Assembly: GCA_944324445.1 (NCBI GenBank)
Contig: CALUWL010000009.1
Span: 1 to 39,692 of the forward strand
Length of the DNA: 39,692 bases
Direction of reading: 5' to 3'
Source of the DNA: Candidatus Gastranaerophilales bacterium
GTDB taxonomy: Bacteria; Cyanobacteriota; Vampirovibrionia; Gastranaerophilales; Gastranaerophilaceae
Positions 31,539-34,001 of this stretch are shown here, in pieces. Numbering within the stretch: the stretch's first letter is position 1; every line of letters begins with the position of its first letter. The position numbers and the translations under genes are program-made. The notes below the pieces were generated by a model, which was not told the origin of the DNA, ran no database searches, and saw only the letters and a program-made list of their open reading frames with translations.

Positions 31539-32042
31539 ATGGCAATAAGTTCAGTAAAGTACAATTTAGCAAACTCCTTTGGAGCATATAATCAAAAATT
31601 AACTCAAGAAACAAAAGAGAAATTAATTGAGCTAAATATACCATTCAGTGCAAATACAACTGAAGCAGAAGGAAAACGCCTAATTTCTGCCTCACAATCA
31701 AAATCAGCAAACGAAGATAGCAACATGTTTTCAAAAAATCAGAACACAAGTGATTTATTTGAAAAAGCTGCAGCATTAGCTAAAAAACTTGGAATAGAAG
31801 TAAACGAAGGAACAAACTTTAATACTTTATTAATTTCAATAGAATCAAAACTTGAACAACTTATAAACTTAAATAAAAGCAACATAGATACACTCAAAGA
31901 ACTTCAAGGATACAGCCAAGAACTTGCTAATATACAAGCTCAAAGCAACGGTTCAAGCGGATACGATAACACCAATCAAGCACTTATGACAAGTCTTGAG
32001 ATAATGGCGCAATATAACAAAAATTACCTGAACAAAAATTAA
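31539..32042 (+). CDS. Orphan helical protein, candidate flagellar-regulon member
   Basis: A 167-residue protein, not recognised. It opens MAISSVKYNLANSFGAYNQK and has two helical parts with a low-complexity Ser/Asn/Lys stretch between (about 45-75). The C-terminal half (about 95-150) looks like a coiled coil (LLISIESKLEQLINLNKSNID). There is no N-terminal signal sequence. Proteins of such size and composition are common among flagellar and type III-exported accessory factors, but no specific family match is evident. The sigma-28-like promoter at 31443 is the only functional hint. Ribosome-binding site AAAGGA fits the ATG at 31539. Its last four bases overlap the end of the convergent barrel gene. 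Confidence 0.7.
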   Translation: MAISSVKYNLANSFGAYNQKLTQETKEKLIELNIPFSANTTEAEGKRLISASQSKSANEDSNMFSKNQNTSDLFEKAAALAKKLGIEVNEGTNFNTLLISIESKLEQLINLNKSNIDTLKELQGYSQELANIQAQSNGSSGYDNTNQALMTSLEIMAQYNKNYLNKN

Positions 32043-32815
32043 AAAAAGTAAAAATTTGTACTAAAATTTACACTTTCACTATGCGTTCCGGAAGGATTTC
32101 TGGTAAGTCCTGCATATACACCAAAGTCCATAGCTTTTGATTTAAAAGGGGAAAGCTTTAAACCTATGTCATGATCGGTTGAATGTGTACTGGTATCGAT
32201 TTTATTATGAAAGCTCAAAGAAAATTTATCACTTAAAAATATGCTCGGGGTAAAATACAATTTTCTTGATGTAGGTATTTGATCAATATCTCTATAATTA
32301 GCTTCCATTCCGGATGCAATACTAAAAAAACTGCAAGGAGAATATTCAGCACCTGCCAATATCCTATAGTCGTTGCTATTATATTTATTTCGATATTGAG
32401 TCATGTTTTGAATAAAACTAAACTGACTGTTAACAGGAATTATCGTTTTAGAATCAACTTTTTTAAATGTTTCTGAGTATTTAGGTGCAGTTGTATAATT
32501 TTCAATATGAAGTTTAAAAGGGACATTGCCATCAACCAAAATCTCATCTGAAAACATATCTAAATTAGCTTTTTCATCTAAATTTGTTTCAGAAGGCTTA
32601 ATATCATCTAAAGAAGCTTGTTCAATTAATTCTTGCTCTTGCTTTTCTTGTTCAACTCGCTTTTGATATTCATCTGAAGCACACTCAATTAAATAATCAA
32701 AATAAGCATCAGAATACAAGTAATCATTTTTATACTCCTCTTGCTGAGCAGTATTTGCAAAACACGAATTTATAAAAAACAATAAAATTAAAACTGTATA
32801 CTGTATCTTATTCAT
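32039..32815 (-). CDS. Probable outer-membrane beta-barrel protein
   Basis: A 258-residue exported protein. The N-terminus MNKIQYTVLILLFFINSCFA is a signal peptide; the 'INSC' could also be a poor lipobox. Residues 30-95 are acidic and helical (EEYKNDYLYS, KRVEQEKQEQELIEQ). The remaining 150 residues show short alternating hydrophobic/polar strands and end with Phe (VNFSTNFYFF), the outer-membrane insertion signal of many barrels. I infer a small barrel of six to eight strands with a periplasmic helical region. It supports a diderm envelope. No homologue can be named. Its final bases overlap the end of the convergent orphan gene. Confidence 0.7.
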   Translation of the reverse strand: MNKIQYTVLILLFFINSCFANTAQQEEYKNDYLYSDAYFDYLIECASDEYQKRVEQEKQEQELIEQASLDDIKPSETNLDEKANLDMFSDEILVDGNVPFKLHIENYTTAPKYSETFKKVDSKTIIPVNSQFSFIQNMTQYRNKYNSNDYRILAGAEYSPCSFFSIASGMEANYRDIDQIPTSRKLYFTPSIFLSDKFSLSFHNKIDTSTHSTDHDIGLKLSPFKSKAMDFGVYAGLTRNPSGTHSESVNFSTNFYFF

Positions 32816-32862
32816 AACGAGAAATAATTATAATTTTAATAAAACTCTTTTACAATCATAAA

Positions 32863-33861
32863 TTATGAGTATATTTGACAAATTTGGTTTAATTTGTCTT
32901 TAGCTAAACCTTCATCAATTATTTTTTTAGCAAGCAAAATTCCATCCATTATTGATTCGGCTTTCTTTGAAATATATAATGCAAGAGCTGAATTTAAAAC
33001 AATAATATCATAAGGTGCAGTTTTAATTTTGTTATCAAAAACACCTTTAATTAAAGATAGACTATGTTCCGAATTCTCGCAGGATATATCATCAAAAGAA
33101 GCTTTCTTTAAACCAACCAATTCAGGATTTATCACGTAAGTAAAAATCTTATTTTTCCAAGCTTCAGCGACATAAGTATCACCATCGATTGAAGCAAAAG
33201 AAAAACCGTTATTACCGGATAAAACTAAAGAATTATCCATATTAAGCTTTAAGCAAATGTTTGCATACTTTTCAACTAAATCTTTATCATTTAAGCCAAT
33301 GAAAATGTTCTTAGAATGCAGAGGGTTTAAGAATTTATCCGTAATTGAAAAAATATTTTTAAAACACATTTTATTTGAAACATTTTTAGTATATTTAATA
33401 TAATTTACAGTACTATCAAGCTGAAAATAGGCAAAATTTGTTTTTTCAAATAAGTTTTCATCATAAGAAAAATTACTAACGCCTGCATTTTTCAAAGTCA
33501 AAAAACTTTTATTAAAATCGAAATAGCTATCTATGCAATATTTAAAAACTCGAATACCGCACGCACTTAAAACTATATCAACACCAAAAGCAATATCAAT
33601 ATAATTATCACAATCAACAAAAGGAATAATCTGCATGGTGTCGGATAAAGCGCAATTATACTTTGTTAAAGATTCACAAGAAGTTTTAACAGCGCTTGAC
33701 ACTTCATCAACGGTTTCACCTTTAATTTTTAAAGCCGTAACAAAAGAGGAAGTTAAAATATCATCGGATAAACCGGATAAAATCTCATCAAATACTTCCC
33801 TTGTGTCTGTTTCAGATAAATCATAACCCAAAATTAAATTATTAATTACTTCTTTTATCAT
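32863..33861 (-). CDS. TrpD-like fold protein lacking PRPP-binding motifs (probable pseudoenzyme)
   Basis: A 332-residue protein with the full frame of anthranilate phosphoribosyltransferase. The N-terminal helical domain fits well: MIKEVINNLILGYDLSETDTREVFDEILSG ... FVTALKIKGETVDEV (interrupted quotation). The C-terminal part also fits: NPELVGLKKASFDD, then LNSALALYISKKAESIMDGILLAKKIIDEGLAKDKL. The active-site motifs are not there: where GTGGD is expected (about residues 80-86) stands PFVDCDN; NIST (about 88-92) is replaced by YIDIA; and KHGN (107-110) by KYCI. The second metal site (Asp-Glu near residue 220) is also not visible (NNGFSFASI). The open reading frame is intact, so it is not a simple pseudogene. 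It cannot make phosphoribosyl anthranilate by the known mechanism; a structural, binding or regulatory role is inferred. No other trp genes are near. No obvious ribosome-binding site. Confidence 0.75.
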   Translation of the reverse strand: MIKEVINNLILGYDLSETDTREVFDEILSGLSDDILTSSFVTALKIKGETVDEVSSAVKTSCESLTKYNCALSDTMQIIPFVDCDNYIDIAFGVDIVLSACGIRVFKYCIDSYFDFNKSFLTLKNAGVSNFSYDENLFEKTNFAYFQLDSTVNYIKYTKNVSNKMCFKNIFSITDKFLNPLHSKNIFIGLNDKDLVEKYANICLKLNMDNSLVLSGNNGFSFASIDGDTYVAEAWKNKIFTYVINPELVGLKKASFDDISCENSEHSLSLIKGVFDNKIKTAPYDIIVLNSALALYISKKAESIMDGILLAKKIIDEGLAKDKLNQICQIYS

Positions 33862-34001
33862 AATAAAAGAATAACATTATTTAAAAAGAAAGTAAGCTAT
33901 ATTAAAAAATTTAACAATTTAATTTTTGATATACTTGCAAAATAAATATGTTTATAGTTTGATAGATTTAAGACAGTACACAATTAAAAGGAATTTAACA
34001 A

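Follow-up and report, generated by a model that had tools for sequence, protein, structure and literature searches.

Anthranilate phosphoribosyltransferase (TrpD; TIGR01245) combines a helical N-terminal domain with an α/β C-terminal domain. The fold is not restricted to enzymes, as the TrpD2/YbiB proteins share it without having the PRPP motif or the chemistry (PMC9835598, PMC10123104). The class II nucleoside phosphorylases (thymidine and AMP phosphorylases) have a helical N-terminal domain of the same kind. Within the tryptophan pathway, the eudicot TSB-like pseudoenzyme illustrates how an enzyme can lose catalysis and be kept for another role (PMC12727527).

In this study, we analysed a TrpD-fold pseudoenzyme gene located at 32863..33861 (minus strand) of the window, that is, the whole stretch of 39,692 nucleotides from a Candidatus Gastranaerophilales bacterium. 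The encoded protein resembles TrpD2/YbiB in presenting a TrpD fold without PRPP motif and without chemistry, but it is of separate origin, scoring 142.3 bits against the TrpD profile and 22.9 against that of YbiB. Its family is also acidic, lacks the groove arginines and was found in one Gastranaerophilales genus only. The likeness to the class II nucleoside phosphorylases is confined to the shared helical domain; the extra C-terminal domain is missing from the 332-residue protein, the catalytic domain gave no notable match, and the scores of 12.9–19.4 bits fall far below the cut-offs of 434–535. The TSB-like pseudoenzyme is closest in spirit, being a retained protein of the same pathway with lost catalysis, although it derives from TrpB, is altered at two key residues and not throughout a site, and has a known partner enzyme that is present. 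The literature found did not describe the TrpD-like protein of Gastranaerophilales, and a search of viral contigs found no relative of it.

Fold, descent and distribution

The reading frame begins with ATG and continues uninterrupted for 332 codons and a stop, in agreement with the coordinates, strand and frame given in the earlier note on this DNA. Two Pfam domains were detected, Glycos_trans_3N at 49.8 bits and Glycos_transf_3 at 97.9 bits, the latter from profile position 14. The TIGR01245 model matched from end to end, although the score lay below its cut-off of 199. A signal peptide was not seen. The AlphaFold2 model, built with 26 orthologues, was of high confidence (pLDDT 93.2, pTM 0.92), and its best matches among solved structures were TrpD enzymes. 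One of these is 9ucw (VIA Z 41.6 over 315 residues at 1.8 Å), to which the protein is 28–30% identical. TrpD chains headed both the Foldseek and the VIA rankings; YbiB (4MUO) lay outside the matches listed, which is no evidence against it. The two-domain architecture of TrpD is therefore present according to both Pfam and the superposition on 9ucw, as the note had claimed from the alignment of both domains.

Among the 28 genomes of the genus, which include that of the window, 26 carried a full-length frame without internal stops (25 of them relatives); the sample names of several relatives mention rumen, cecum or colon. One genome (G009) has an in-frame, internally deleted copy. Intact-frame orthologues, whose absence would have pointed to decay, are the rule: 26 full-length species and one short form. 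The short form (L122:1838-2389) encodes 183 residues, lacks about residues 11–150 with both active-site loops, and occupies the same locus, where both the promoter and the neighbouring gene are retained. No copy was found in G005, a 77% complete genome, and this region is probably just missing from the assembly, since neither rpsP nor the adjacent exported-protein gene was found there.

The TrpD-like proteins formed a monophyletic clade (support 100/100) whose stem, 1.33 changes per column in length, joins the tree among Gastranaerophilales TrpDs; the tree was midpoint-rooted, and we infer the direction of descent from it. A separate orphan TrpD-like protein of 246 residues was observed in another genus of the family (L131:4119-4859; G058:C4, minus strand). 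This protein is independent of the clade, has no N-terminal domain, partly keeps GGGG..NIST and IIKH, and has no adjoining trp genes.

State of the former active site

The site positions were mapped by alignment to 26 canonical TrpDs of related genomes, with residue roles taken from the M. tuberculosis enzyme (AnPRT) as given in PMC9835598. The former GTGGD loop (33610..33624, minus strand) now reads PFVDC at residues 80–84, with G107 replaced by P80, the threonine by F81, G110 by D83 and the aspartate by C84. The former NIST (33586..33597, minus strand) is now DIAF at residues 89–92; N117 corresponds to D89, S119 to A91 and T120 to F92, while the isoleucine is retained. In the former KHGN (33532..33543, minus strand), now KYCI at residues 107–110, K135 is retained as K107, the histidine is replaced by Y108 and N138 by I110, and the glycine is also gone. 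The SSxSG loop has F114 and D115 in place of S142 and S143, and the anthranilate-binding R193 is replaced by S162. The second metal-binding pair, in the β5-β6 loop (33196..33201, minus strand), is now Ser-Phe (D251 to S221, E252 to F222), and across the clade the glutamate occurs in none of 26 sequences and the aspartate in one. Of the 40 positions with a conservation of at least 92% in canonical TrpD, 31 show its loss or weakening when the clade is taken as a whole.

These replacements bear out what the earlier note had reported for GTGGD, NIST, KHGN and the Asp-Glu pair. Its wider claim that the whole PRPP site had been erased is nearly, though not wholly, exact, because the pyrophosphate lysine survives as Lys or Arg107 in 26/26 orthologues, the NIST isoleucine is kept, and the Mg-ligand serine, which is alanine in the window, is still serine in 15/26 relatives. 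Within the four PRPP motifs, only that lysine and that isoleucine remain. A shift of otherwise intact motifs, which the note had named as a possible refutation, is ruled out by the collinear alignment with canonical TrpDs and by superposition on TrpD over 315–325 residues. By its motifs, metal residues and profile score, the protein is classed as not a TrpD enzyme.

Redistribution of conserved residues

Conservation was compared between the pocket and the remainder of the protein. In canonical TrpD, conservation is highest in the pocket columns (0.88 versus 0.60 elsewhere); in the TrpD-like clade these columns average 0.55 versus 0.63 elsewhere (P = 0.027 against random columns). Two other regions have become more constrained. 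The first is a β-hairpin at residues 229–244 (AEAWKNKIFTY; 33130..33177, minus strand), in which residues 229–240 reach a conservation of 0.90 in the clade versus 0.57 in canonical TrpD. Residues E233, W235, K238, F240 and Y242 are invariant, three of them (W235, K238 and F240) at positions that are variable in canonical TrpD. The AlphaFold2 model places the strands at 229–235 and 238–244. Since the invariant residues occupy alternate positions in these two strands, which a two-residue turn connects, their side chains are predicted, by standard hairpin geometry, to share one face. From this alternation, and from the variability of these positions in canonical TrpD, we infer that the face is exposed; it may serve for binding. 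The second region is a C-terminal helix segment at residues 289–303 (LNSALALYISKKAES; 32953..32997, minus strand), where residues 289–300 show a conservation of 0.86 in the clade versus 0.64 in canonical TrpD.

The old pocket floor has not become free to vary throughout. Asp89 (26/26), Asp95, Lys/Arg107 and Tyr108 (25/26) are near invariant, and three of these, Asp89, Asp95 and Tyr108, differ from the canonical residues. Because of these new invariants, some probability must be granted to a remodelled small-molecule protein that binds or converts another ligand through these four positions. We nevertheless consider this unlikely, as the remaining pocket positions, those of the former GTGGD, SSxSG and Asp-Glu, either vary or are hydrophobic, the pocket columns as a group are conserved below average, and the G009 protein has deleted the pocket region while retaining all five hairpin invariants.

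A second alternative is a role like that of TrpD2/YbiB, in which nucleic acids, or acidic proteins such as ObgE, are bound through positive grooves. The fold class is the same and the PRPP motif is likewise lost, and the earlier note had suggested a change of function of this kind. The comparison did not support it, and a YbiB-like function was rejected on profile score, groove residues and acidity. The YbiB model covered only residues 13–71 and scored well under its cut-off of 185, and the protein shares 15% identity with E. coli YbiB. YbiB R92 and R123 align to Asp and Phe in the window protein, and the commonest residues of the clade include no Arg there, with an alignment that is uncertain at this identity. 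The isoelectric point is 4.59–5.36 in 25 of the 26 orthologues (8.59 in the other) and the window protein has a net charge of −11; bulk charge alone is, however, weak evidence, because E. coli YbiB itself has a net charge of −3 (pI 6.4). Sequence-independent nucleic-acid binding is judged unlikely for proteins this acidic, and we regard the YbiB-like role as a whole as improbable.

Selection on the TrpD-like gene

Pairwise dN/dS ratios (Nei-Gojobori, 11 pairs) ranged from 0.06 to 0.28; they are rough, as dS was 0.9–1.9 and therefore near saturation. Among the orthologues, 21 columns are invariant. A relic of a trp operon in slow decay, readable by chance, would fit the genus-wide loss of the pathway described below and the large internal deletion in one species. 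Such plain decay was rejected on the genus-wide intact frames and the dN/dS values, and is further contradicted by the invariant columns, the conserved promoter and the lack of internal stops in the genus copies; we rate it as very improbable. The proposal that selection keeps the fold without the chemistry is, in contrast, strongly supported by the intact frames, the dN/dS range, the movement of conservation out of the pocket and the absence of the pathway. We conclude with high confidence that this is a pseudoenzyme under purifying selection.

Loss of tryptophan synthesis in the genus

The genomes were searched for the tryptophan pathway. The searches for TrpC, chorismate-binding synthase and TrpD were positive in 14/14 control genomes. 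Within the genus, TrpC (PF00218) exceeded the cut-off in one genome of 28, chorismate-binding synthase (PF00425) in four and canonical TrpD in one. None of these, nor TrpB, was found above cut-off in the 97% complete genome of the window, which answers the earlier call to look there for a separate intact trpD. The genus has lost tryptophan synthesis. The TrpD-like gene of the window stands outside any trp operon, and in the rest of the order, all true TrpDs with a neighbourhood that was read sit within trp operons. TrpB was observed above cut-off in 18 of the 28 genomes, which, with TrpC in only one, suggests indole salvage.

A single member of the genus (G022; L127, G022:C73) holds a complete trp operon with fused trpEG, D, C, F, B and A. 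Its true TrpD clusters apart from the TrpDs of its own family in the tree, suggesting that the operon was regained by transfer. The same genome retains the degenerate gene in addition to the true TrpD, and the degenerate protein is therefore unlikely to be a substitute for TrpD. A divergent but still active anthranilate phosphoribosyltransferase is the least probable alternative and hardly credible: single losses can be tolerated, as in yeast Trp4, which still supports growth after Ser-to-Ala replacement of its Mg ligand (PMC12750150), but here almost none of the residues that contact substrate or metal is left, the genome lacks both the anthranilate synthase that would supply the reaction and the TrpC that would use its product, and G022 has a true TrpD besides.

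The adjacent exported protein and the promoters

The gene directly downstream (32039..32815, minus strand) encodes an exported protein with a signal peptide, a conserved NDYLYSxEYFDYLIECA segment and a β-barrel-like C-terminal domain ending in Phe. Its AlphaFold2 model has nine strands (pLDDT 74 overall, mostly 83–94 over the strands), and the best Foldseek match, a weak one, was the KdgM porin. The two genes adjoin in 25/25 fetched loci with gaps of 8–78 bp by ORF call, and the pairing persists where the upstream genes differ and also in L088, where both flanks are different. Relatives of the exported protein are also present in other genera, at sites apart from TrpD; one of them (L126:3724-5313, G112) begins about 6 bp after a shikimate dehydrogenase-like gene.

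The constant adjacency first suggested a two-gene operon. This was dropped, as both genes have their own conserved promoter. The downstream gene is preceded by TTGTAA-17-TATAAT (32827..32855, minus strand), 11 nt before its ATG; a TTGAAA-like-17-TATAAT element occurs in nearly every locus with the TATAAT 8–14 nt before ATG, and the exact TATAAT is found in the window and in 23/25 relatives as scored, one exception being TATTAT. The TrpD-like gene has a weak −10-like hexamer in the window (TATTCT, 4/6 matches; 33868..33873, minus strand), 6 nt upstream of its ATG, and in most loci of the relatives the hexamer is mostly TATATT, TATAGT or TATTAT, mostly at that same distance. As the −10 hexamers lie 4–14 nt before the start codons (window 33857-33941 and 32815-32890, and the same sites in L067–L091), transcription of both genes would begin at the ATG or close to it, implying leaderless transcripts. 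The genes of the window overall showed no excess of close −10 hexamers (8/37 versus 26% in shuffles). At two loci (L080 and L085, upstream of 8001), an aminotransferase gene lies within a few bases ahead of the TrpD-like gene, and no promoter of the usual kind was seen; the two may be co-transcribed there.

The earlier mention of a putative outer-membrane protein beside the gene thus holds, in that the neighbour is real, of outer-membrane type and always adjacent, with the qualification that it has its own conserved promoter. Rate covariation between the two proteins did not exceed background (partial r 0.03, 14 loci). The exported protein is a candidate for a shared function, and its adjacency is a lead and no more.

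Proposed role and implications

The former enzyme very probably serves a new purpose, since the pathway is lost, the active site is gone, the conserved residues now lie elsewhere and the gene is kept genus-wide. The reading we favour, at a probability of roughly 0.6, is a clade-specific, TrpD-derived pseudoenzyme in which a new surface mediates binding or an adaptor function. The ancestral TrpD would have lost catalysis, so that the protein no longer makes phosphoribosylanthranilate, and its descendant may act as a cytoplasmic, probably dimeric, binding or adaptor protein. The face formed by E233, W235, K238, F240 and Y242 would be the new interaction surface, a role for the hairpin that we moderately favour. 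The emptied pocket may be held by its own residues, for example a pair of Asp89 and Lys/Arg107 sitting where the Asn and Lys of TrpD both held pyrophosphate. To the fuller account we give even odds: a TrpD turned once into a dedicated interaction protein in a genus that had dropped tryptophan synthesis. It would form another non-catalytic family derived from TrpD, separate from TrpD2, and its new hairpin surface would have been kept by one lineage even after the whole active-site region was deleted.

The family offers a well-bounded natural case in which chemistry was lost, the fold was kept and conservation moved to another surface. It also provides a comparison set, with many species, a natural truncated variant (G009) and a species with both forms (G022). 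As the TrpD-like genes pass the Pfam thresholds for the TrpD domains, they may be misnamed anthranilate phosphoribosyltransferase, and Gastranaerophilales would then wrongly seem to make tryptophan.
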